DNA of 64,000 nucleotides from positions 896,501 to 960,500 of the forward strand of contig NZ_CP014229.1 of the NCBI RefSeq assembly GCF_001553605.1, written 5' to 3'. The position numbers and the translations under genes are program-made. Each line of letters starts with the position of its first letter. The first letter of the stretch is position 1. The notes beneath the pieces were generated by a model, which worked only from the letters and a program-made list of their open reading frames with translations, did not search any database and had not been told where the DNA came from. Shown here one piece after another: positions 3,275 through 37,909 of this stretch. This DNA is from Desulfovibrio fairfieldensis. Its GTDB lineage: Bacteria > Desulfobacterota > Desulfovibrionia > Desulfovibrionales > Desulfovibrionaceae.

Positions 3275-4999
3275 TTACGCGGGCCGCCAGTCCTTGACGC
3301 CCAGATCCACGGAGACGATGCCGTTATAGGTATCCAGGCGGGGCGTGTAGGCCAGGCGGATGGTCTGACCCACCAGGGAAGGCGGCAGAGCCTCGGCCAT
3401 GCGCCAGGCTTTGGCCGACAGGGTGACGCCGCTTTTCTGGTCCTGAACGCGCAGCAGCACATGCTCGCGGCTGTGTCCCAGAAAGGAGCGTTCCTTGACC
3501 AGCAGGGGCGGCGAGGCGAATACCGGTTCGGCATTGCCCGGTCCGAAGGGTTGCAGAAGCTCCAGCTCTTTTAAAAAGCACTGTTCACCGGCACGGGCGA
3601 AATCCAGCTCGCATTCCAGGGTCAGGGTGGGGCGGAGCGGCTCCGGCCCCAGCGCTTCGGCGGCCACGGCGTCGAAACGCTCGCGGAATTCTTCCAGGCG
3701 TTGCGGCTCCAGGCGCACTCCGGCGGCCAAGCGGTGCCCGCCGAAGCCCAGCAGGCAGGGGGCCGTGGCCGCGAGGCCCGAATGCAGGTCGAATTCGCGC
3801 ACCGAGCGGCCCGAGCCCTTGAGGTTGCCCTGATCCTCACAGAGAATGATGGTGGGGCGGTAAAATTCATCCACAATGCGCGAAGCCACAATGCCCACAA
3901 TGCCGGGGTGCCAGTCCTGGCCGTAGAGCACAAGGCTTGCGCGCGGTCCGCGCGAAAGCTGCTCCTCGGCCTGGACGCGGGCCGCGGCGTGGATGCGCTC
4001 CTCCTCGGCCCGGCGTTCGGTGTTCAGGGCGTCCAGTTGCGCGGCCAGGCGCGCGGCGGCCGCGTAATCCTTTTCGCGCAGCAGCTGCAGGGCCAGCTCC
4101 GCCTGTCCCATGCGCCCGGCGGCGTTGATGCGCGGGGCCAGACGAAAAACGACCTGCCCGCTGCTCAGGGAGGCGGCCGCGTCAAAACCGCTGACCACCT
4201 TGAGGGCCGCCATGCCGGGGCGTGCGGCTTTGGCCAGTTTGCCCAGGCCGCCGCGTACCAGAATGCGGTTCTCGCCGGTCAGGCGCATGACGTCGGCCAG
4301 GGTGCCCAGAGCCACCAGATCCAGGGCCTCGTCCATTTTGTAGCGTTTGCCCGTATGCGGGGCCAGAGCCGCGTTGACGGCGGCCATGAGATAAAAAGCC
4401 ACGCCCACCCCGGCCAGATGCGGGCAGGGCGAAGCCTCGGCCTCGTCCAGGCGGGGGTTGCAGATGGCCTGGGCCGGGGGCAGTTCCGCCGGGGGCAGGT
4501 GGTGGTCGGAAATGACCACGGTCATGCCCAGCTCCCGCGCGCGGCGCACGGCTTCCAGGTCCGAAATACCGCAGTCCACGGTCAGCAGAATGCCGTAGCC
4601 TTGCGCGGCCAGGACTTCGATCTCGGGGACGTTCAGGCCGTAACCCTCGCTGCGGCGGTCGGGCAGATGGTGCCCGGCCATGATGCCGTGGGCTTCCAGG
4701 ACATCCAGGGTCAGGGTGGAGGCCGTGATGCCGTCCACGTCGTAGTCGCCCCAGACAGCCAGCTTTTTGCCGGACAACAGTTCCTGGGCCAGCAGTTCGG
4801 CGGCCTGCGGAATCTGGGGCCAGCAGGAGGGCGGCGTGAGCGCGTTCAGACGCGCCGACAGAAAATCCTCCATGGCCTCGGCCTCTGTCAGGCCTCGCTT
4901 CCAGAGGATTTCCAGCAGGAGCGGCGAAATGGAAAGCTGCTCGGCCCAGCCGGAGGGCGGCGTGCCGGACGGCCCTTCGCGAAACTGCCAGTTTTTCAC
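3275..4999 (-). CDS. recJ: Single-stranded-DNA-specific exonuclease RecJ
   Basis: This 574-residue protein is a 5'-3' single-strand exonuclease of the DHH family, acting in recombination and repair. Metal-binding motifs are visible in order: DYDVDG at residues 85-90, the DHH triad of [10 protein letters not shown] at 165-167, and the DHHA1-domain motif [10 protein letters not shown] in the C-terminal half, followed by the OB-fold region. Length matches bacterial RecJ (about 570-580). Its ATG overlaps the stop of the TPR gene by four bases (ATGA), making it the last gene of the yicC-to-recJ run. Confidence 0.95.
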
Positions 5000-21323: not shown

Positions 21324-22937
21324 ATGTATACGACTATGACAATGGTATGGCGGCGGCCCGGCATTTTGTCCCGGGGCCTGCTGTCAGGCCTTCTTTTGGG
21401 CCAGCTGTTTTGCCTGTTCCTTGCCGGGCAGGCCGCGGCCGCCGAAAACGCCCCGGAGGTTCAAAACGCCCCGGCCGCGTTGGCCAATCCGGTTTCAGCC
21501 CTGCTGTCGCCCGGCGGCGGACTGCTTGACGTGGAGGAAAACGCGCCGGTCACGACCAAAGACGGCGTGAGCGTGCTGCAGTTTGTGATTCCCGGCGACG
21601 CGGAGAACCTGCAACTGGCCGTGCCCGGCCAGAGCGTGGCCCGCTGGAGCGCCGCGCCGCAGCCCCTGGAACAGGACGGCGGCCTGGCCCGGCTGCGCGA
21701 GGATCTGTTGACCAAACGCGCCCGCCTGGCCGGGCAGCTGACCGCCGTGAGCGCGCGACTGGCGCTCTGGCAGGCCAAGCCGGAAACCATCACCCTGCAG
21801 GAGCTGGAACAGCGCGAAAGAAAAATGCAGGATGTGATTCCCGCCTTGGGCCGGGAACAGGCGGATCTGGAACGCCGCCTGAAGCTCTTGCAGCAGGAAC
21901 TGGAACGTCTGCCCGCCAGCCCGGAGCTGGGGCAGCGGATCAGCGTCACCCTGCAAAAGGCCGTATCCGGCGTGGAGAAACTGCCCGTCCGCTACAGCTA
22001 TACCTTGAGCAATTGCGGCTGGCAGCCGATCTATAATTTCAATGCCCAGCCGGAAAAGGGCGACGGCGATATCATCGACGTGCGGCTCATGGCCGAGGTC
22101 TGGCAGTTCACGGGCATGGACTGGCATAATACCAAGCTGACCCTGGCGACGCGCGGCAACGGCCCGCGCGAGCCCGCCCCCCTGCCGCGCTGGGTGGTGG
22201 ATTCCTCCCCCAAGCCGGAGCCCAAGCCCGTGCCCATGGTTATGATGGCCCCGCGCAAAGCCGCTACCATGGATCTGGCCGCTGAAGACGGTCCCGCGCA
22301 GGCCAACGCGCCGGTGGACCTGGACGCCAGCGGCGTGTATGCCACCTGGACCTTGGCCGCGCGTGGCCTGCCCGAAGGCCGTTCGCGCCTGTTGATCACC
22401 GCCGACGCCTGGAAGGCCCCCCTGCAATGGCTGGCCCGGCCCAGCGTGGGCGACAGCCGCGTCTGGCTGATGGCTAAATATGTTCTGCCGCCGCAGCAGG
22501 CCTGGCCGGAAGGTCAGGCGGAATACAGCGTGGACGGCCAGAGCGTGGGCCAGGGCCTGTTCCGCCCGCGCGGCGGCGAGGCCACCCTTTTCTTCGGCGC
22601 GGACCCGCGCGTCAGCGTAACCACCACGGCGGACAGCAGAAAGCGCGGCGAAAGCGGCTTTATCGACAAAAGCAAGAACTGGACCTGGGCCTGGACCTAC
22701 ACTCTGACCAACAGCCACTCCAAGGCCCTGACCGTGCGTCTGGAGCGTCCGGCTCCCATGATCGTGGACCAGAGCGTCAGTGTGAGCTATGACGATACCC
22801 CGCCCTCCCAGAAGGACGAGAAGAAGCATATGCTCTTCTGGGAAGTGAAGGTGCCCGCCGACGGCAAGGCCAGCGTGCATCACAGCGTGACCATTTCGTC
22901 GCCGACCAAGCTGCCGTTGTTGCCTGACGCCCCTTAG
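21324..22937 (+). CDS. DUF4139 domain protein, exported
   Basis: This 537-residue protein has an N-terminal signal peptide (hydrophobic LLSGLLLGQLFCLFLAG, cleavage near AAAA). A coiled-coil segment at about residues 110-215 (LARLREDLLTKRARLAGQL) is followed by a C-terminal DUF4139 beta-rich domain opening VRYSYTLSNCGWQPIYNFN and ending VHHSVTISSPTKLP. The family is known as mucoidy-inhibitor MuiA-like, without a proven biochemical role. GTGGAGG stands ahead of the ATG. It lies 61 bases after ettA and may be co-transcribed. Confidence 0.8.
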   Translation: MYTTMTMVWRRPGILSRGLLSGLLLGQLFCLFLAGQAAAAENAPEVQNAPAALANPVSALLSPGGGLLDVEENAPVTTKDGVSVLQFVIPGDAENLQLAVPGQSVARWSAAPQPLEQDGGLARLREDLLTKRARLAGQLTAVSARLALWQAKPETITLQELEQRERKMQDVIPALGREQADLERRLKLLQQELERLPASPELGQRISVTLQKAVSGVEKLPVRYSYTLSNCGWQPIYNFNAQPEKGDGDIIDVRLMAEVWQFTGMDWHNTKLTLATRGNGPREPAPLPRWVVDSSPKPEPKPVPMVMMAPRKAATMDLAAEDGPAQANAPVDLDASGVYATWTLAARGLPEGRSRLLITADAWKAPLQWLARPSVGDSRVWLMAKYVLPPQQAWPEGQAEYSVDGQSVGQGLFRPRGGEATLFFGADPRVSVTTTADSRKRGESGFIDKSKNWTWAWTYTLTNSHSKALTVRLERPAPMIVDQSVSVSYDDTPPSQKDEKKHMLFWEVKVPADGKASVHHSVTISSPTKLPLLPDAP

Positions 22938-22959
22938 GGGGTTGTGCCTGAATGCGGCA

Positions 22960-23120
22960 GCGTTTCAAAGGCAATCTGCATTTAGAGCATTTCAACTTTG
23001 AAATGCTCCAACGCCGAACACGGTGAGGCGCGCCGCAACGCGGCGTGGATTCCGGAAAAAACCGCGTTTTTTGCCGGAATGATTCCTTTGAAACGTATAG
23101 CGTTTCAAAGGCAATCTGCT
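22960..23120 (+). mobile_element. Hairpin-rich dispersed repeat, family B, copy 1
   Basis: The segment from about 22982 matches 33784-33995 in the same orientation: AGAGCATTTCAACTTTGAAA..., then AACGCCGAACACGGTGAGG, a CGCCGC/GCGGCG stem, an ATTCCGG-AAAAAA/TTTTTT-GCCGGAAT stem, and CCTTTGAAACG. The 20-mer at 22960-22979 recurs exactly at 23100-23119, 140 bases on, as if the tail of a first unit precedes a full second unit. It has no coding potential. Confidence 0.75.
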
Positions 23121-23152
23121 TAGACCGATCAGCTTTCTCATTCTGTTTCCCG

Positions 23153-23183
23153 ACGCGCGTCGTCCCTTGTGGGCGACGCGCGT
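23153..23183 (+). terminator. GC-rich hairpin before the kdp control region
   Basis: Arms 23153-23166 and 23171-23183 (ACGCGCGTCGTCCC / GGGCGACGCGCGT, one bulge) are followed by TTTGCGTTTTC. It probably stops read-through from ettA/DUF4139 into kdp. Confidence 0.65.
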
Positions 23184-23244
23184 TTTGCGTTTTCAATAGT
23201 GCCGGATCTTTTCCTTCGTCTCCCCCGTGACGCTTCCAACCGCC

Positions 23245-23288
23245 TTACATTTTGTAATCCAGACTTCATCGGAGGTTACAAAATGTAA
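23245..23288. promoter_or_regulatory. Paired TTACA-N3-TGTAA dyads, likely activator sites for kdp
   Basis: Site 1 (23245-23257, TTACATTTTGTAA) and site 2 (23276-23288, TTACAAAATGTAA) are perfect 5-3-5 dyads. Their centres are 31 bases apart (about three helical turns), and they lie 56 and 87 bases ahead of the -24/-12 promoter, the usual place for sigma-54 enhancer sites. The obvious candidate ligand is the NtrC-type regulator at 31296-32648. The two arms could also pair as a weak hairpin followed by ATTTTT, so a terminator role is the alternative. Confidence 0.65.
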
Positions 23289-23343
23289 GATTTTTCCACG
23301 CCGGAGAAATTATATCTATTTGAAATACAACATAAATTATGTT

Positions 23344-23359
23344 TGGTACAAGCCTTGCT
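23344..23359 (+). promoter_or_regulatory. Sigma-54 (-24/-12) promoter of the kdp operon
   Basis: TGGTACAAGCCTTGCT matches TGGCACG-N4-TTGCW, with GG (23345-23346) and GC (23357-23358) exactly 10 bases apart. It lies 58 bases before the first small ORF. The locus itself encodes a sigma-54 activator with GAFTGA, which supports the call. Confidence 0.75.
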
Positions 23360-23416
23360 CAGAGTGGAGACGCGCCGGGCCGACGCCGGGCGCGATCACT
23401 GACGTAAGGAGGAATC

Positions 23417-23497
23417 ATGTTTGTCATCTGTTTAGCGCTGGGGCTGACCGTCTTCGCCGGTATGGCCCTGCTGACCCTGGCCTGTGCCAAATTGTAA
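23417..23497 (+). CDS. 26-residue membrane peptide at the head of the kdp operon
   Basis: This reads M-FVICLALGLTVFAGMALLTLACAKL, one hydrophobic helix with a CAKL tail. A textbook TAAGGAGGA lies just upstream, and a stop precedes kdpF by 19 bases. It is too short for most gene callers. Similar tiny single-helix peptides are, as far as I recall, found ahead of kdpF in other bacteria. It may be an extra accessory subunit of the Kdp pump. The ribosome site and position make translation likely; the function is inference. Confidence 0.6.
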   Translation: MFVICLALGLTVFAGMALLTLACAKL

Positions 23498-23516
23498 GAA
23501 GAAAATGGAGAGCATC

Positions 23517-23597
23517 ATGTTGTATGTTTCGGGGCTGGCATTGCTGTTCTGCATTGCCTATCTCGTCTGGGTCATTCTGAATACGGAAAAACTGTAG
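23517..23597 (+). CDS. kdpF: KdpF-like small subunit of the potassium pump
   Basis: This is a 26-residue single-helix peptide, MLYVSGLALLFCIAYLVWVI plus LNTEKL, with the YLV(W/Y)xILxxEx ending typical of KdpF. KdpF stabilises the KdpABC complex in E. coli. ATGGAGAGC forms the ribosome site, and kdpA starts 12 bases after its stop. Confidence 0.8.
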   Translation: MLYVSGLALLFCIAYLVWVILNTEKL

Positions 23598-23609
23598 GAG
23601 AAGGCGGCC

Positions 23610-25274
23610 ATGCTGTATGTGTTTCTGCTGGTGGCGCTCTGCGTCGTCGTGTCCTGGCCCATCGGCAAGATGGCGACCTGGGCCATGAGCGATCCGGTTT
23701 CGGATCGCGGCTTCCGGCGTGCCGTCGAAAACCTGTTTGTGAAGTGCGGCGGCAATGTTGTCAGAGGGCAACAGAATTGGAAGCAGTATGCTTTGTCGAT
23801 GTTGCTGTTCAACGCCTTGATTTTTACGTTCATTTACCTGGTGTTGGGCACGCAGCAGTGGTTGCCGCTCAATCCCGACGGCAAGGGCGCTCTGGAGGGC
23901 AGCCTGATCTTCAACACCACGGCTTCCTTCACCTCCAACACCAATTTGCAGCACTATTCCGGCGAACAGGCGCTCAGTTATATCGGACAGTTCGCCCTGA
24001 TGTTTCTGCAATACCTGACTCCGGCCACGGGTTTGGCCTGCTTGGCGGCCCTGGCGCGCGGCCTGTCCGGCAAGGTGCTGATGGGCAATTTTTACGCCGA
24101 CGTGATGCGGGCCACCTTTCTGGTGCTGCTGCCCCTCTGCCTGGTCACGGCCGGCATGCTGGTGCTGGGCGGCGTGATCATGACGTTTGACGGCTCCGTG
24201 GTCGCCCAGACCCTGGAGGGGGCCAAGCAGATTATTGCCCGTGGCCCGGTAGCGGCTTTTGTGACGATTAAGCAACTGGGCACCAACGGCGGCGGCTTTT
24301 TCGGGCCAAACTCCACGCATCCTTTTGAAAACGCGAGCTTTTTCACAAACTTCATCGAGACCATGTCCATCATCGTCATCCCCATGGCCTGTGTCTGGAT
24401 GTTCGGGCGGCTTACGGGCCGCATGAAGCATGCGGCCGTGATTTTCGCGGTGATGCTGAGCCTGCTCTGCGTCAAGCTGGGTTGCGCCGTATATTTTGAA
24501 AGCGTGCCGTCCGCCGCCTTCCATGGCCTGGATATTGAGAACAGCTCCAATCTGGAAGGCAAGGAACTGCGTTACGGCACCAGCGGGGGACCGGCCTGGA
24601 GCATCATCACCACGGCCACCAGCAACGGTTCGGTCAACGCCATGCACGACAGCCTGAACCCGCTGGCCGGGCTCATGCCCATGATCGGCATGTGGCTCAA
24701 CGTGGTCTTCGGCGGCGTGGGCGTGGGCTTCATCAATATGTTCCTTTACATCATCGTAGGCGTGTTCATCAGCGGCATGATGGTGGGGCGCACGCCGGAA
24801 TACTTGGGCCGCAAAGTGGAAACACGCGAGATGAAGCTGGCTCTGCTGGCTATTCTGGCCCATCCCTTCTTCATCCTGGGCGGCACAGCCCTGTTCGCGG
24901 CCACGTCCTGGGGCGCGGATACCGTGGCCAACGCGGGCTTCCACGGTTTTTCCGAAATTCTGTACGAATTCACCTCCTCGGCAGCCAATAACGGCTCCGG
25001 CTTCGAGGGCCTGGGCGACAACACCGTGCCCTGGAATATCGCCACCGGCCTGGTCATGCTGCTGGCCCGCTATATTCCGATCATTCTGCCCCTGGCCATG
25101 GTCGGCTCCCTGGCGGCCAAGACGCCCGCGCCCGAAACCGCGGGCACGCTGCGCACCGACACGCTGCTCTTCGGCGGCGTGCTGCTGGGATGCGTGCTCA
25201 TCGTGGGCGCGCTGCTCTTCATGCCCGTGGCCGTGCTGGGGCCCATCGCCGATCATTTGTCCGTCATGCGTTAG
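23610..25274 (+). CDS. kdpA: Potassium-transporting ATPase subunit KdpA
   Basis: At 554 residues it has the usual KdpA length, with about ten transmembrane segments and four selectivity-filter-like repeats, including TNGGGFFGPNSTHPFENA, TASFTSNTNLQHYSGE and SAANNGSGFEGLG. KdpA is the channel-like potassium-binding subunit. AGGAGAAGG precedes the ATG. It opens the KdpABC block under a sigma-54-type promoter. Confidence 0.96.
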   Translation: MLYVFLLVALCVVVSWPIGKMATWAMSDPVSDRGFRRAVENLFVKCGGNVVRGQQNWKQYALSMLLFNALIFTFIYLVLGTQQWLPLNPDGKGALEGSLIFNTTASFTSNTNLQHYSGEQALSYIGQFALMFLQYLTPATGLACLAALARGLSGKVLMGNFYADVMRATFLVLLPLCLVTAGMLVLGGVIMTFDGSVVAQTLEGAKQIIARGPVAAFVTIKQLGTNGGGFFGPNSTHPFENASFFTNFIETMSIIVIPMACVWMFGRLTGRMKHAAVIFAVMLSLLCVKLGCAVYFESVPSAAFHGLDIENSSNLEGKELRYGTSGGPAWSIITTATSNGSVNAMHDSLNPLAGLMPMIGMWLNVVFGGVGVGFINMFLYIIVGVFISGMMVGRTPEYLGRKVETREMKLALLAILAHPFFILGGTALFAATSWGADTVANAGFHGFSEILYEFTSSAANNGSGFEGLGDNTVPWNIATGLVMLLARYIPIILPLAMVGSLAAKTPAPETAGTLRTDTLLFGGVLLGCVLIVGALLFMPVAVLGPIADHLSVMR

Positions 25275-25307
25275 GCGCTGAGAATAGCTACTGTGGAGAA
25301 AGACATA

Positions 25308-27407
<2,100 letters not shown>

Positions 27408-27434
27408 TGTCCGACAATGATTGAGGAGAATGTC

Positions 27435-28064
27435 ATGACGACTGAACTTACGGGAAATTGGGGCGCGCAGTTCGCGGCCTGCCTGCGCCTGATGCTGGTA
27501 TCCGCTGTGATCCTCTGCGTGCTGTATCCTCTGGTCATCCTGGCCGTGGGGCGGACGTTCACGCCCTGGACCGCCGCAGGCTCCCTGCTGCTCAATGAGC
27601 GGGGTCAGGTGGTGGGCAGCGCGCAGATCGCCCAGGCTTTCACCAGGCCGGAATATTTCTGGCCGCGCCCCTCGGCCGTGGACTATGCCGCCAATGCCAC
27701 GGGCGGCAGCAATCTCTCTCCGGCGGGCGACGCCCTGCGGGAACGCGCGTTGGAAAGCCTGAAAAGCCTGGAGGCCACGCCGCAACGCAAGGTTCCGGCG
27801 GACCTGGTCACGGCCTCGGGCAGCGGCATGGATCCGCACATTACCCTGAAAGCCGCGCACTGGCAGGCGGAGCGCGTGGCCCGCGCGCGCGGCCTGGAAC
27901 CTTCGGACGTGGTGGAATTGGCGGACAGCCTGGCCGAAACGCCCGGCGGCGTGCTGAACAGCGCGCCCCTGGTCAATGTGCTCAAGCTGAATATGGCTCT
28001 GGACCATCTAAGCGGCACGATTGACGCCGGGAGCATGTCCGCTCCGCTGGAGCAGGGACGGTAA
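27435..28064 (+). CDS. kdpC: Potassium-transporting ATPase subunit KdpC
   Basis: The ATG at 27435 follows GAGGAG, giving 209 residues; a frame start at 27417 would place that site inside the gene. There is one N-terminal membrane helix (LMLVSAVILCVLYPLVILAVG), then a periplasmic domain with the family blocks RPEYFWPRPSAVDYAANATGGSNL, LVTASGSGMDPHITLKAAHWQ, and GVLNSAPLVNVLKLNMAL. KdpC completes the KdpFABC complex. Confidence 0.95.
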   Translation: MTTELTGNWGAQFAACLRLMLVSAVILCVLYPLVILAVGRTFTPWTAAGSLLLNERGQVVGSAQIAQAFTRPEYFWPRPSAVDYAANATGGSNLSPAGDALRERALESLKSLEATPQRKVPADLVTASGSGMDPHITLKAAHWQAERVARARGLEPSDVVELADSLAETPGGVLNSAPLVNVLKLNMALDHLSGTIDAGSMSAPLEQGR

Positions 28065-28242
28065 GCAGCCTTGTCCGGGGTCGGGAGGTCGGATAGACTG
28101 AAATCCGGCCCGGAAGGTTTCCTTTCCGACCCGGCCGTTGATGCGGCATCTCAACGCTGATCTGCTCTGGACATGAAGACCGGAGGGACGGGCCGGCACC
28201 CGCCCCTCCGCGGTAGTGAAACTCGGAATATCCGGGGGCGCT

Positions 28243-29367
28243 ATGCGGGAATTTTCGGACGTGCTGGCGCGCAAGCGCGAAGGTTCGCTCAAAATATATC
28301 TGGGCTATGCGGCGGGCGTGGGCAAGACCTGCGCCATGCTTCAGGAGGCCCACAATCTGTTGCGGCAGGGCTTTGACGTGGTGGCCGCCTATGTTGAGCC
28401 GCACGAGCGGCCCGACACCCTGGCCCTTCTGGAAGGCATCGAAACCCTGCCGCCCCTGCGCGTCAGTCAGGGCGGAGCGGCTTTTCCCGAAATGGATGTG
28501 GAAGCCCTGATCCGTCGCGCTCCCCAGATCGCCCTGGTGGACGAACTGGCGCACACCAACGCGCCCGGCTCTCAAAGGGAAAAACGCTACCAGGACGTTC
28601 TGGAAATCCTCTCCCACGGCATCAACGTCATCGGCACCCTCAACGTGCAGCATTTGGAATCCGTGGCCGAAAGGGTGCAGGAAGCCACGGGCGTGGCCGT
28701 GCGCGAGCGCCTGCCCGACGCTTTTCTGGCCCGCGCGGACCAGGTGGTTACGGTGGACGTTTCCAAGGAGGATTTGCGCGAGCGCCTGCGCCAGGGCAAG
28801 ATATACAAGCCTGAACAGGCCGAACGGGCTTTGCGGAATTTTTTCAGTTACGAAAACCTTTCCTTTTTGCGCGAACTCTGCCTGCGCGAAGCCTCGGGCG
28901 ACCAGATGCGCAAAATCGAGGCCCAGGCCCTGCTTTCGCCGGAGGCGGAAGGCCATGCCGCCGAGGCTGTGATGGTGGCCATCAGCTCCAACCCCACGGA
29001 CGCGGAAACCCTGATCCGCAAGGCCATGCGCCTGGCGAGCCAGATGGGATCGCGCTGCTATGTTGTCTATGTGCAGCGGCAGCGGGAGAGCCCAGAGCGG
29101 ATCAATGCCGCCGTGCAGCGGGGCCTGCAGAACAACCTGCAACTGGCCGTGCGTCTGGGGGCCGAGGTGGTGGAGCTGGAGGGCGAGGACGTGGCCGAAA
29201 CTCTGGTCAATTTTGCCAGCGCCCGCAATGTGCGGCATGCCTTTTTCGGCAAGTCCCGCCTGACGCCGTTGCGCGAACGCCTGCGCGGATCCTTTATCCT
29301 CAATTTTTTGTATGACGCGGTGGGAGTGGACGTGCATATCGTCAATCTGACTCCCAGAGAGGTTTGA
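28243..29367 (+). CDS. kdpD: Short KdpD (N-terminal domain plus Usp only), lacking the kinase
   Basis: This 374-residue protein corresponds only to the cytoplasmic N-terminal half of KdpD: P-loop LGYAAGVGKTCAMLQEA, YVEPHERPDTLALLEG, DELAHTNAPGSQREKRYQDV, LNVQHLESVAERV, then a universal-stress-like domain (MVAISSNPTDAETLIRKA). The four-helix sensor, histidine-kinase and ATPase domains of full KdpD are absent, and the frame ends cleanly. A separate kinase follows 84 bases later, so the sensor has been split. The ATG at 28243 is preferred to a GTG at 28216. Confidence 0.88.
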   Translation: MREFSDVLARKREGSLKIYLGYAAGVGKTCAMLQEAHNLLRQGFDVVAAYVEPHERPDTLALLEGIETLPPLRVSQGGAAFPEMDVEALIRRAPQIALVDELAHTNAPGSQREKRYQDVLEILSHGINVIGTLNVQHLESVAERVQEATGVAVRERLPDAFLARADQVVTVDVSKEDLRERLRQGKIYKPEQAERALRNFFSYENLSFLRELCLREASGDQMRKIEAQALLSPEAEGHAAEAVMVAISSNPTDAETLIRKAMRLASQMGSRCYVVYVQRQRESPERINAAVQRGLQNNLQLAVRLGAEVVELEGEDVAETLVNFASARNVRHAFFGKSRLTPLRERLRGSFILNFLYDAVGVDVHIVNLTPREV

Positions 29368-29451
29368 TGCGGAAAAGTCGGATCTTCCTGTGTGAATTAT
29401 GTCCCCAGGCGGAAATGTAAAGCATAAAAAGCATCTAACCAGTTGACGGCA

Positions 29452-31299
29452 ATGGATATAACAGTTCTACCCACTTTGCACCGGCGCATCAGCCAGGCCA
29501 CCCTCAAACTGGTATTGGCTTTTGGTCTGGTGGGCGTGCTGCTTTGCACGGGCTTTTTCTTTGCCGGGCGCGCGCCCGACTCGCTGGTGAGCCGGAATTA
29601 CGATTCCGTGGCCCTGGCCAGGCAGATGTCCACGGCTCTGGCCGGTTGGCGTTTTCCGGAACTCTATGTCGGGAAGGACCGCGCTGCCTGGCAGACCGAG
29701 TTTGAACTGGCTCTGGCCGGAGCGCGGGCCAATGTGACCGAAACGGGTGAACAGGCGGCGGTGGACGCCGTGGCCCGGAGCTGGAGCGAACTGTTGCTTG
29801 CCGGGCCGGAAGACGCGGATATGGGCTACAATCACGTGCGCATGCAGCTCAACGCTCTGGTGGCCCTCAATGAGGATGGCATCCGGCAAAGGATCGCCGA
29901 GGGGCGCTGGTGGCGCGACATCGTGTTCACGGTGGGCGTTGCCCTGTTTCTGGCATGCACGCTCTGGGCCTTTTTTCAGACCGACGCCACTGCCGCGCGC
30001 ATTGCCCATCCACTGCGCCGCGCGGCCGAAGTGCTTCAGGCCCGTCCTCCCCTGCGCAAACCTCTGCGCCTGCCCGCGCCGCAGACCTTGGAAGTGCGTA
30101 TTCTGTTCGAGGAATTCACACGGCTTTGGGCGCGGCTCAGCCAGCTTGACGCCGTGAATCTGAGCCGCCTGATTGCGGAAAAAAACAAGTTGGCCGTGCT
30201 GCTGGACGCCGCTGAAGACGCTGTGCTGATGCTTGGCTCCGGCGGCGCGGTGGAGCATGCCAGCAGCCGCATGTTGGCGCTGCTCGGGCTCACGTCCAAG
30301 GATGTGCTGGGTAAAGTCTGGGCGGATCTTTCAAGCACGGCTCCCAACTATCTGGCCCTGCGCGCCGTTCTGCACAGTGGTCTGACCGGCAGCCGGGACA
30401 TCGCCCTCGCCGATCCGGAGCAGCCGGGCGACGCGCGCGGCACGGGGAGCGAGCGCTGGTTCTCGGCCCGGAGGCGGGTGGTGGAGGAGTCGGGCCGGGG
30501 GGCGCGTGCCGTGGCCGGGCCGAAGCAGACCCTGGGGCAGGTTTTTCTGCTCACTGAAATCACGGAAAAGAAGCGGCGCGACGCCCTGCGCGCGGAAATG
30601 ATGGATTGGATTTCCCACGAATTGAAAACGCCGGTGCAATCTTTGGGGCTGGCCGCTGATTTGCTGGCCCGACGGCCTGAAAGCGCGGCGGACCCTGATC
30701 TGTCCGCCCTGGTGGCGACCGTGCGGGAGGATGCCGCGCGTCTGCGCACTGTGGCGGCCCAGTTTCTGGATATCGCCCGCATGAGCCCGCACGCTCTGGA
30801 GCTGCGACCCGCGCCGCTGGATCTGCGGGACTGCCTGCCGCGCTGGCTGCAACCCTTTGAACCGGCGGCCCGCGAGGCGGGCGTGGCCTTGCGTTGCGAC
30901 GTTGCGCCGGGTCTTCCGCCTGTGTTCCTGGATCAGGAGCGTTTTGCCTGGGTGCTTTCCAACCTTGTGTCCAATGCCTTGCGCGCCGTGCCTGAGGGCG
31001 GCGCGGTCACGGTAAGCGCGGAGCTGGAAGAGGAGGGCCTTCTGGCCTTGCGGGTGGCGGACAACGGGCCGGGCATCGACGCGGAGCTGGCCGGACGCCT
31101 TTTCGAACCCTTCTCGCATCGACGCGCTGCCGGGCGGCGATTGAGCATCGCCGGTCTCGGTCTGGCCATCAGCCGGGCCATTGTGGAAGGGCACGGCGGT
31201 ACATTGCACTACACACCCGCTCCGGAAGGCGGTTCCATTTTTACGGTATGCCTGCCTCTGCCGGAGCAGGAGGCCGAAACCGGCGGAGGACGGGCATGA
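29452..31299 (+). CDS. Membrane sensor histidine kinase of the kdp locus
   Basis: This 615-residue protein has TM1 at about residues 18-40, a periplasmic loop, TM2 near 160-180 (IVFTVGVALFLACTLWAFF), and a PAS-like domain (LLDAAEDAVLMLGSGGAVEHAS). HisKA has phospho-acceptor His389 in WISHELKTPVQ, followed by an ATPase domain with NLVSNALRAV, ADNGPGID and GLGLAISRA. The C-terminal half of KdpD thus seems replaced by an unrelated kinase, partnered with the NtrC-type regulator whose ATG overlaps its stop. Stimulus probably potassium or turgor (inference). Confidence 0.85.
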   Translation: MDITVLPTLHRRISQATLKLVLAFGLVGVLLCTGFFFAGRAPDSLVSRNYDSVALARQMSTALAGWRFPELYVGKDRAAWQTEFELALAGARANVTETGEQAAVDAVARSWSELLLAGPEDADMGYNHVRMQLNALVALNEDGIRQRIAEGRWWRDIVFTVGVALFLACTLWAFFQTDATAARIAHPLRRAAEVLQARPPLRKPLRLPAPQTLEVRILFEEFTRLWARLSQLDAVNLSRLIAEKNKLAVLLDAAEDAVLMLGSGGAVEHASSRMLALLGLTSKDVLGKVWADLSSTAPNYLALRAVLHSGLTGSRDIALADPEQPGDARGTGSERWFSARRRVVEESGRGARAVAGPKQTLGQVFLLTEITEKKRRDALRAEMMDWISHELKTPVQSLGLAADLLARRPESAADPDLSALVATVREDAARLRTVAAQFLDIARMSPHALELRPAPLDLRDCLPRWLQPFEPAAREAGVALRCDVAPGLPPVFLDQERFAWVLSNLVSNALRAVPEGGAVTVSAELEEEGLLALRVADNGPGIDAELAGRLFEPFSHRRAAGRRLSIAGLGLAISRAIVEGHGGTLHYTPAPEGGSIFTVCLPLPEQEAETGGGRA

Positions 31300-32648
31300 C
31301 CGGAGATGACTCGGAACTGAGCGTCCTGGTGGTGGACGACGATGCGGCCATCCTGCGCACTCTGCTGCTGACCCTGAAAAGCCTGGGTTGTCGGGCCGTG
31401 GGCGAAAGCGGAGGCGAAGCGGCGCTGGCCGCTGTCGAGAAGCAGGCGCCCGACCTGCTGCTGACCGATATGCGCATGGAAGGCATGAGCGGGGTGGAGC
31501 TGACCGCCGCCGCGCTGGAGCGTCGCCCGGATTTGATCTGCGTGCTGATGACGGCCTTCGCCTCCTATGAAAATGCGGTGGAAGCCATCAAGGCCGGGGC
31601 ATATGACTATCTGCCCAAACCCTTTTCCGCCGGAGAGCTGGAGCATCTGCTGCGTCGGGTCCGGGATCTGGTGCGCCTGCGGCGGGAAAACACCCGCCTG
31701 AGGCAGGCGCGGCACGGCTGGTTTGAGGGATTGACCTCTCCCGCCGCGCTGGACTTGCAGCGTTTGATGGACAAGCTGGCGCAAAGTGACGTTTCCGTGC
31801 TTTTTCAGGGCGAAACGGGCACCGGCAAAACTTCGCTGGCCCGCGAGTTGCACCGCTGTTCAGCCAGAAGCGACAAGCCCTTTGTGGAAGTGGTCTGTTC
31901 GGCTATCGCCGAACCCCTGTTCGAGTCCGAGGTCTTCGGGCATGTGCGCGGGGCCTTTACCGGCGCGGTGCGCGACCGGGCGGGCAAATTCGAGGCCGCC
32001 GAGGAGGGCACGCTCTTTCTGGACGAGGTGGGCGAGCTCTCGCCTTCCAGCCAGGCCAAGCTGCTGCGTTTTCTGGAAGACCGGGTCATTGAGCGGGTGG
32101 GGGACAACAAGCCCCTGCGCCTGGACGTGCGGGTGCTGGCGGCCACCAACCGGGATTTGCGAAGTCTGGTGGCTGAAGGGCGCTTCCGTGAGGATCTCTA
32201 TTACCGCCTGAACATTTTTGAATGCCGCCTGCCGCCTCTGCGGGAACGCCGGGAGGACATTCTGCCTCTGGCGCAACGTTTTTTGCGGCAGGCCGCCGGA
32301 GAAAAGGCGGTTCCCGTGCTTTCCGGCGAAGCGCGCGACGCCCTGCTGGCCCACGCCTGGCCCGGCAATGCCCGCGAACTGCGCAATGTCATGGAGCGCG
32401 CACTGCTGCTGGCCGAAGGTTCTGCGGTGCGGCGTGACGACCTGCCCCCGGCCCTGCAGGGCGTAGGCGGCGCGGCGAGCGGGGGCGCAACGGCGGATGA
32501 GGGACGCATCCTGACGCTGGCCGAGGTGGAGGAGGCCCAGATCCGCAAGGTGCTGGGCCTGGGCGTGAGCATGGACAAGGCCGCGGCCCTGCTCGGCATC
32601 ACCACGGTCACGCTCTGGCGCAAACGCAAGGAGTTGGGCCTGGATTGA
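31296..32648 (+). CDS. NtrC-type sigma-54 response regulator, probable activator of kdp
   Basis: This 450-residue protein overlaps the kinase stop by ATGA. The receiver domain has phospho-acceptor Asp58 (LLLTDMRM). The AAA+ domain has Walker A GETGTGKTSLAREL, the sigma-54 loop GAFTGA at 219-224, and Walker B LFLDEVGELS. The C-terminal Fis-type helix-turn-helix ends MDKAAALLGITTVTLWRKRKEL. In E. coli kdp is driven by the OmpR-type KdpE and sigma-70. Here a sigma-54 activator takes that place, consistent with the -24/-12 promoter ahead of kdp. A like arrangement is, I believe, present in D. vulgaris. Confidence 0.9.
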   Translation: MTGDDSELSVLVVDDDAAILRTLLLTLKSLGCRAVGESGGEAALAAVEKQAPDLLLTDMRMEGMSGVELTAAALERRPDLICVLMTAFASYENAVEAIKAGAYDYLPKPFSAGELEHLLRRVRDLVRLRRENTRLRQARHGWFEGLTSPAALDLQRLMDKLAQSDVSVLFQGETGTGKTSLARELHRCSARSDKPFVEVVCSAIAEPLFESEVFGHVRGAFTGAVRDRAGKFEAAEEGTLFLDEVGELSPSSQAKLLRFLEDRVIERVGDNKPLRLDVRVLAATNRDLRSLVAEGRFREDLYYRLNIFECRLPPLRERREDILPLAQRFLRQAAGEKAVPVLSGEARDALLAHAWPGNARELRNVMERALLLAEGSAVRRDDLPPALQGVGGAASGGATADEGRILTLAEVEEAQIRKVLGLGVSMDKAAALLGITTVTLWRKRKELGLD

Positions 32649-36711: not shown

Positions 36712-37909
36712 GCGCTTCCTCCTGCTCATTGTCTGGTTTTTAGGGCCAGTGTTTTTTCCGGCGCGGACGGGGCCGTAAAGCCCGGCCAAGCGCCGGAATA
36801 CGCTGCGGACGCCGCGACACGCTTTCAGCGTGGGCGTCGGCAACGCCGTTTTGCCATCTGGAACTACGCTCCATCCTGTAGGTTTATAACTATCTATTCT
36901 TCTATCTGGACGATCCGCCTTTGAAAACGGCAAATCGCTCTGCGCGGACTTTCGAAAACAGCGCTGTAACTTGTCCCCAGACGAATCCGCTTCGGCCGTT
37001 GCAATGAAGCAAAGGCAGCCGCAGGGCTTGCAAGCCGTATGGGCAAAGACGGCATGGCTTCACGGCGGCTGAAGGCCGCACGACCTCGTCGCCGTTGAAC
37101 AGTGATTTTCAGCGCGGCATACTTTCAAGTGCTGCGACGCCGTATTCTCTTTGAAGGCAGCGCCGGGATTCTGGGGAAAACGGATACGTGCCAAGCGCGG
37201 CCATTGATAATCTATATAAGCAATCCTTGTGCCAAATTGGACATGGCCCGGATGCCGTGCAATGGCGGCGGGTTATTCCGCCGGGCCTGTGAGGCGAGCG
37301 GATTTCCCGCGTCAAGAGTTGAGTTGATTTTGACTTATTTCCTTTCAAAGCCGTATTTTGCTGCGAGTCTATATTGACTTGTGATGCATAATCGACTTGT
37401 CCGTGCGGGCTGTTGTTGGCCGGATGCCCGCAAACGCGCCCAGCAAGCTGCCACGGATACTTTTTTTCTTTCTATGTACCCTCATAGCTGCTTTCCGGGC
37501 AAACAGCAATGCCGACGCCGATTCGTCCTGGACATGTCCGTATGCATGTATGTCCCGACAGGGAGATTGCCTTCCGGTCATTTCTTGGGGGGATGATCGT
37601 CGCCCGGCTTGCGCCACAAGGCACTCGCCTTTTTGCAGGAACAGCATCAATGGAAATGTTCAGAACCGGCTGTGGCCATATGGCGCCGGTCGGAACAGCT
37701 CTGCGGGGATGTGGGACGCGGCCGCGCAAGAGCAGCCCAAGTGTTAAATGCTTGCATCGGATGCGGCGCGAATGAAAAAAAGAACATAATGGGCCGGAAT
37801 TCCGACAGCCGCGCTACGGACTTTTTGCGGCAGGCATGCAAGTCGCGCGGGGAGGCGTTCCCCAAGAATACGGGCCGCGCATGCCGGTGAGCCGTCCACA
37901 GGGCGCGGC
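36712..37909. other. 1.2-kb region without a confident gene
   Basis: Open frames here are short, lack ribosome sites and lie in all frames. GC drops in places. Small hairpin-prone stretches occur near 36810-36870 and 36970-37100, and the latter shares short similarity with the cassette of repeat family B (GCAAAGGCAGCC-like). It may be a decayed gene or a regulatory region upstream of the APC permease; I see no tRNA or known riboswitch. Confidence 0.5.
37424..37747 (+). CDS. Possible small secreted Cys-rich protein (weak)
   Basis: This is a 107-residue frame with a signal-peptide-like start (PRILFFFLCTLIAAFRANSNADA), then SSWTCPYACMSRQGDC and CATRHSPFC. The Cys spacing and export signal are the only arguments for it. 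No ribosome site is evident, and a frame of this size can occur by chance in 1.2 kb of gap. Confidence 0.22.
   Translation: MPANAPSKLPRILFFFLCTLIAAFRANSNADADSSWTCPYACMSRQGDCLPVISWGDDRRPACATRHSPFCRNSINGNVQNRLWPYGAGRNSSAGMWDAAAQEQPKC

Follow-up and report, generated by a model that had tools for sequence, protein, structure and literature searches.

The kdp locus and its upstream region

The stretch of DNA analysed here (the window) comprises 64,000 bases of the Desulfovibrio fairfieldensis contig NZ_CP014229.1 and carries a kdp operon together with genes for sensor proteins and a regulator. Its features are given below with the positions identical in G113, the nearest relative with the same system, whose regulator is 89% identical to that of the window.

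23245–23257, no strand: dyad 1, TTACA-TTT-TGTAA, TTACATTTTGTAA; proposed activator (UAS) site; 13/13 identical in G113
23276–23288, no strand: dyad 2, TTACA-AAA-TGTAA, TTACAAAATGTAA; 12/13 identical in G113
23306–23343, no strand: AT-rich stretch with the IHF-like match TATCTATTTGAAA; 30/38 identical in G113
23343–23359, plus strand: putative sigma-54 -24/-12 element TTGGTACAAGCCTTGCT, GG-N10-GC; 16/17 identical in G113
23417–23497, plus strand: additional tiny membrane ORF MFVICLALGLTVFAGMALLTLACAKL preceding the kdpF-like one; similar ORF in other kdp loci
23518–23598, plus strand: presumably kdpF-like tiny ORF MLYVSGLALLFCIAYLVWVILNTEKL, from its position
23610–25274, plus strand: kdpA (Pfam KdpA, E 3.2e-206)
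25293–27407, plus strand: kdpB (Pfam E1-E2_ATPase and Hydrolase); the true start may be a few codons downstream
27417–28064, plus strand: kdpC (Pfam KdpC, E 6.5e-58)
28216–29367, plus strand: KdpD N-terminal sensor and Usp domain without kinase (Pfam KdpD, Usp)
29443–31299, plus strand: separate histidine kinase (Pfam HisKA, HATPase_c)
31248–32648, plus strand: NtrC-type response regulator (start at 31296 in a preliminary description); Pfam receiver, AAA+ with GAFTGA, Fis-type HTH ending TLWRKRKELGLD

Direct reading of the sequence bore out the claim of the preliminary description that two perfect 13-bp dyads lie 31 bp apart, centre to centre; each is the exact reverse complement of the other. 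The exact GG-N10-GC element claimed to precede kdp was likewise found, with the GG at 23345–23346 and the GC at 23357–23358, in the TGGYA...TTGCW-like context of a sigma-54 promoter. The GG lies 63 bp from the centre of the second dyad, and 57 bases separate position 23359 from the ATG of the first small ORF at 23417. A start of the kdp transcript at about 23369–23371, roughly 12 bp past the GC of the -12 part, is predicted. RpoN itself is encoded in the genome (PF04552, E 4.5e-60, one match). The AT-rich stretch, conserved in G113 and containing a weak IHF-like match, had been missed in the preliminary description. This match, at 23313–23325, has two mismatches and is no better than matches in shuffled sequence. 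Scanning 27 modules (dyad pairs with promoters, as defined below) gave a mean best mismatch of 2.04 compared with 2.54 for shuffled sequences, and the best matches started 30–33 bp before the GG in 15 of the 27; two best matches were perfect. The scan is no more than suggestive of an IHF site in the modules. No known RNA, riboswitches included, matched positions 22900–23700 at the Rfam gathering score.

The operon does not begin with kdpF; a second tiny ORF (23417–23497) comes first. This ORF may encode an unnamed small Kdp subunit or a regulator. The following one we take to be kdpF-like by its likeness to KdpF; neither matched NCBIfam. As claimed before, the last gene of the operon encodes an NtrC-type activator: Pfam and an alignment of the HTH identified the receiver, the AAA+ domain with GAFTGA and the Fis-type HTH. 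All matches of this protein to the NCBIfam models AtoC, NtrC and ZraR were well under the cut-offs, and the sensor protein reached 325 bits with KdpD_non_kinase, below the cut-off of 550. The window has the layout of the DVU3334 type, a regulator within the kdp operon together with KdpD-N and a separate kinase. A one-piece KdpD with an OmpR-type KdpE was not found beside kdp; the KdpD domain and the kinase are encoded by separate ORFs and the regulator contains a sigma-54 domain.

To judge how often such motifs occur by chance, we counted them in the window and in the genome. The exact dyad pattern TTACANNNTGTAA has two sites in the 64-kb window, both of them the kdp dyads, and three in the 3,699,310-base genome, two of them at kdp. 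The third (2527042) was discounted as a further target; by eye, it lies at the 3′ end of an apparent coding frame. A reversed control pattern matched the genome eight times, so single dyad sites are not rare and it is the pair that is rare. With two mismatches allowed, the dyad was not enriched in the window (8 found, 4.8 expected), and the -24/-12 consensus alone, at up to two mismatches, was not significant there (19 found, 44.7 expected). The case for a control region rests on the combination of the elements, their geometry and their conservation.

Some further observations were made in this part of the window and in comparable loci. Two copies of the 20-base sequence GCGTTTCAAAGGCAATCTGC (22960–22979 and 23100–23119), next to hairpin-like repeats, lie upstream of the kdp control region, between it and the preceding gene. 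A perfect TGGCAC-N5-TTGCW sigma-54 consensus is located at 37219–37234 on the minus strand, upstream of the minus-strand ORF 36933–35200, presumably an amino-acid permease gene. Tiny membrane ORFs ahead of a kdpF-like ORF are also present in L089, L100, L004, L005, L006, L007, L008, L014 and L043, and such ORFs often end in CDKI, CDKL or CAKL.

Conservation of the module and its association with the regulator class

Comparison with G113 revealed a footprint. The dyads (13/13 and 12/13), the promoter (16/17) and the AT-rich stretch (30/38) are kept, whereas the sequence between the dyads (7/18, 39%) and the 200 bp upstream (104/200) have diverged. That the dyads and the -24/-12 element should recur in related kdp promoters, as the preliminary description proposed, was confirmed: apart from G113, the other promoters read from clade 1 of the activator tree (see below) have diverged pairs at 20, 21 or 31 bp, i.e. 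at near-integral turns, with the exception of G236. The spacing is 31 bp in G113 and G071, 20 bp in G076 and G015, and 21 bp in six kdp loci of genus g12. In G071, the kdp genes and the KdpD-N, kinase and activator genes are on separate contigs. Its kdp unit has a 31-bp dyad pair and GG-N10-GC (12/13 promoter match), and its regulator unit a 20-bp pair followed, by eye, by a weaker promoter, GG-N10-GA.

Clear orthologues of the regulator (approximately 60% identity or more) occur in 11 of the 348 genomes of the order, including that of the window, and the next match has 49%; the match of G084 covers 331 of 466 residues. By best-domain bit scores, KdpA of the window is nearer to KdpA of G113 and G071 than to that of genus g12.

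The kdp operon of G236 (L102) includes full-length KdpD and has no module. The activator operon, adjacent on the other strand, has a module with a 4-mismatch pair at 31 bp and a 13/13 promoter match. The order at this locus (4072–4623 and 8998 onward) is module, a 183-residue protein, kinase and activator, beside kdpFABC with full-length KdpD. The 183-residue protein is matched by part of KdpD-N at 128 bits and belongs to no Pfam family. This arrangement looks like a regulator swap caught halfway.

For a systematic comparison, kdp loci were grouped by their regulator class. Of the 348 genomes searched in the order, 58 gave a KdpA match, 55 of them above the family cut-off, and 51 kdp or regulator stretches were read from KdpA-bearing genomes; most of the other kdp loci read encode KdpD at full length, as a rule with a receiver protein after it. 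A KdpA scan of named genomes added 80 stretches, retained from 118 that were confirmed. To count as a module, a sequence had to contain two TTRCA-N3-TGYAA dyads, with no more than four mismatches in total and a spacing of 20–22 or 30–33, and a GG-N10-GC element matching at least 10 of 13 consensus positions 25–150 bp downstream of the dyads. Modules were sought up to 4.5 kb upstream of kdpA at 128 loci, classed as activator-type if an activator matched strongly or an orthologue was present elsewhere, as full-length-KdpD if a KdpD ORF exceeded 700 residues, and as others if neither applied. Dropped before counting were L001–L003, L084–L088 and L093 (part of L102), as well as L090 and L092, which are without KdpA. 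L100, L101 and L114 were placed manually among the activator-type loci, because the locus was incomplete or the orthologue lay on a different contig; in G080/L114, the activator itself was not seen. The incomplete loci L127 and L135 were counted as others.

The module was detected at 19 of 26 activator-type loci, a figure to be read as a contrast and not as an unbiased estimate or as 19 independent cases, since the motif was relaxed and the spacing set chosen after some of the counted loci were known and the six g12 loci are near-copies. It was present at 0 of 91 full-length-KdpD loci and at 3 of 11 others, and dinucleotide-shuffled controls contained it in 1/520 and 1/1820 cases. Seven activator-type loci failed the test (L004–L007, L019, L027 and L102). 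Degenerate dyad pairs were recognized by eye in L004–L007 and L027, the promoter of L027 being about 160 bp away, and in L102 a module precedes the regulator genes; for L019, we found no explanation. It is new that the module co-occurs with this activator type and was not found at the 91 loci with full-length KdpD. The conservation in relatives and the absence of the module at the 91 loci support, at the level of sequence, the wiring from activator through dyads to RpoN put forward in the preliminary description.

The activator family and other potassium-uptake operons

The activators encoded beside modules have TLWRKRK or TLWRRRK as their terminal helix, with the variants TLWHKRK (L007) and TLWRKRR (G236). 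Among 17 near paralogues, 13 have TLHxK and none has TLW. AlgB of Pseudomonas has a similar helix, so a helix of the TLWRKRK type alone need not mean potassium. In a tree of 54 rows, the 19 other activators, which lack the TLWRKRK/TLWRRRK end, form one side of a branch (100/99). On the opposite side are 34 kdp-, Trk- or Ktr-linked activators and G338, a 3.9-kb contig with an activator followed by a kinase. The activator of the window groups with 10 others on one side of a branch supported at 100/100 in this tree, which does not include DVU3334. Long branches were flagged, and clades 1 and 2 make up one clade only if the root is placed on the paralogue side.

A sequence-only profile (R1) was built from 19 modules and searched in the 348 genomes of the order, scoring 10 candidates per genome with strict filters, so that weaker full-length matches may exist. 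At E up to 0.05, some match was found in 256 of the 348 genomes; most of the low ones listed, and most matches under about 32 bits, cover the promoter half only. Among the matches listed, at least 14 with at least 26 bits were full-length, beginning at model position 6 or earlier and reaching position 118 or beyond. Six of them are from the training set (G000, G113, G071, G236, G313 and G075), and G313 has a Trk arrangement. The other eight (G299, G305, G337, G003, G004, G008, G014 and G015) all have an activator gene directly before the site and a kinase and Trk or Ktr potassium-uptake genes after it, although these activators are related to one another and to that of G313 and do not represent eight independent inventions. 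In G299, G305 and G337, the downstream order is kinase, receiver/TPR protein, two TrkA-like proteins and TrkH; in G003, G004, G008, G014 and G015, it is kinase, an unassigned protein, a TrkH-family (Ktr-like) transporter and a TrkA-type protein. These assignments are by Pfam for G003, G337 and G299 and by phmmer for the rest.

Seven of the eight modules have dyads 31–32 bp apart with one or two mismatches and the GG exactly 60 bp past the second centre; the promoters of G003 and G014, with matches at 9 of 13 positions, fall short of what the module test required. The G337 module is poor (four mismatches, 30-bp spacing, 73 bp to the GG). In the genome of the window, R1 at E up to 0.05 gave only the kdp site; the one TrkH match of this genome is thus without an R1 match. 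Two further matches, G310 (27.0 bits) and G174 (31.3 bits, nearly full-length), were rejected: the nearby activators have another HTH type and fall among the paralogues, and no good dyad pair was found. The unassigned protein between the kinase and the TrkH-family gene has 194 residues in L199 (3497–4078) and no Pfam match there, and counterparts occur in the Ktr-type module operons L197, L198, L200, L201 and L008.

Outside the order, an activator scoring more than 250 bits is encoded at 13 of the 80 loci of the named-genome scan. Twelve of them have the activator gene first, then the kinase gene and kdpABC; where the locus is long enough to show it, a gene for a KdpD-like protein follows kdpC. 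L019 is arranged differently, starting with the kinase and ending with the activator. Modules, or degenerate dyad pairs, with a spacing of about 31–32 bp and a promoter about 60 bp further on were found in records named Chlorobiaceae, Hydrogenedentota, Verrucomicrobia, Lentisphaeria, Victivallis, Desulfobacteraceae, Desulfobacula and Desulfurivibrio; most of these records are metagenome bins, so that single names may be wrong. A Thermoguttaceae record has a weaker module, with a spacing of 30 and the promoter about 50 bp on. For L036, L042 and L043, the stretch read shows a truncated activator gene or none. In Desulfurivibrio (L008), a module precedes kinase-kdp and a second site with a promoter precedes kinase-receiver-TrkH (sites 7814 and 15604), which suggests one activator for both potassium systems. 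Victivallis (L043) has two modules, one preceding a glycine-betaine ABC operon and the other kdpA. For the potassium-linked activators of clade 2, no published description was found among the literature matches listed.

Control of kdp, alternative explanations and known systems

Most probably (we estimate roughly 0.86), the region 23245–23359 controls a kdp operon that depends on sigma-54 and is driven by its own activator. Observed are the anatomy, its conservation, the joint occurrence of module and activator, and the fact that the two are also paired at Trk and Ktr operons; to these we add an inferred course of events, from signal and phosphorylation through activator binding and DNA bending to the transcription start. 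Upon potassium limitation, the KdpD-like N-terminal/Usp protein and the separate kinase would phosphorylate the NtrC-type regulator of the operon, which would then occupy both TTACA-N3-TGTAA dyads, one dimer next to the other and, at a spacing of 31 bp or about three turns, on the same side of the helix. The bound regulator would oligomerise and contact the RpoN-polymerase at the -24/-12 element some 60 bp downstream, perhaps assisted by an IHF-type bend. Transcription from near 23370 would drive kdpFABC, the sensor genes and the regulator itself.

The dyads might instead be bound by another regulator, e.g. a counterpart of DVU3305 or a repressor, the activator acting elsewhere and the co-occurrence reflecting shared operon history. 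DVU3334 is not alone at kdp in D. vulgaris: DVU3305 and DVU0596 bind there too, the DVU3305 site overlaps that of DVU3334, and a LytR-type regulator is among those binding upstream of kdp (PMC3333781). The dyads of the window may therefore not serve one protein alone. Yet the dyad pair accompanies this activator type at Trk and Ktr operons and at the unlinked units of G071, and was not found at the 91 full-length-KdpD kdp loci, which makes another binding protein improbable. KdpE-like control, with an OmpR-type regulator at a sigma-70 promoter as in E. coli, would suit the KdpD-like sensor protein of the window and the other kdp operons of the genus, in which full-length KdpD is accompanied by a downstream receiver protein. 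However, the sole regulator within the kdp operon of the window is the sigma-54 activator and no DNA module turned up at the loci with full-length KdpD, and we regard this kind of control as very unlikely. Hardly credible is a coincidence of chance palindromes in AT-rich intergenic DNA with a chance GG-N10-GC, a sigma-70 promoter driving kdp: single motifs are not rare at two mismatches and matches to the sigma-54 consensus are common by chance, but the elements are selectively conserved against diverged flanks in G113, and the module occurred in 0/91 controls and 2/2340 shuffles.

Beyond this locus, it appears reasonably probable that a dedicated family of TLWRKRK/TLWRRRK sigma-54 activators controls potassium uptake in general, across several phyla, through a fixed enhancer before Kdp, Trk or Ktr operons (two TTRCA-N3-TGYAA-type dyads, mostly 30–33 bp apart, about 60 bp from the -24/-12 element), forming a potassium/osmotic regulon parallel to KdpD/KdpE. 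This reading includes Desulfurivibrio, with Kdp and a TrkH-type gene, and Victivallis, with a glycine-betaine transporter and kdp. The distribution of modules suggests a widespread, little-noticed mode of potassium-uptake control, and that regulator and enhancer can move between unrelated transporters serving the same need. Profile R1 could predict potassium-responsive genes from DNA alone in organisms whose potassium regulation has been little studied.

The wiring of kdp through sigma-54 and its own activator is itself not new. The preliminary description had set it apart from the sigma-70/KdpE scheme of E. coli; this difference stands, its novelty does not, because the wiring was already reported for DVU3334 of Desulfovibrio vulgaris (PMC3333781). 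In that study, DVU3334 was mapped to its own kdpFABC operon (Rajeev 2011), its motif was reported as conserved in D. vulgaris Miyazaki and Syntrophobacter fumaroxidans, and kinase and sensor are split at kdp, as in the window. DVU3334 is also listed as a GAFTGA regulator of the kdp operon (Kazakov 2015, PMC4641369). A sigma-54 regulator gene near kdp is recorded for Acidihalobacter (PMC9062700), Geobacter kdp is treated as KdpD/KdpE-controlled (PMC10599522), sigma-54 and kdp are not linked in the available part of PMC3543383, and a 2025 survey of sigma-54 regulons makes no mention of kdp or potassium in its main text, as far as available (PMC12316311). No further paper linking sigma-54 to the control of kdp, Trk or Ktr was found among the literature matches listed. 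Within the literature searched, three things go beyond print: that the enhancer has a fixed geometry, that it also occurs with other potassium transporters and in other phyla, and that profile R1 detects it. The D. vulgaris Hildenborough system, as far as described, shares with the window a sigma-54-dependent GAFTGA response regulator in its own kdp operon, a KdpD-N/Usp protein with a separate kinase, and a conserved upstream motif. The window is a clear new member of a wiring reported in one Desulfovibrio species.

Control of kdp is usually described as KdpD/KdpE; here, a sigma-54 activator and its putative enhancer stand before three kinds of potassium transporter. In E. coli, kdpFABC is controlled by a one-piece KdpD kinase and the OmpR-type KdpE at a sigma-70 promoter. 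The window has the same pump and a KdpD-like sensor domain, but differs in its split sensor, NtrC-type activator and predicted sigma-54 promoter. Enhancer-dependent promoters of the NtrC/ZraR/AtoC type combine paired upstream palindromes with a -24/-12 promoter, as does the window, and their target genes differ. The clade-2 activators (G313, G299, G305, G003, G004, G008, G014, G015, G075 and named records) share with the window the dyad type and a TLWRKRK- or TLWRRRK-like end, and their modules, mostly with a spacing of 30–33 bp and about 60 bp from the promoter, are next to kdp, Trk or Ktr operons. Unlike in the window, the order there is usually activator, module, kinase and transporter, and these activators occupy another part of the tree, with G337 beside clade 2.
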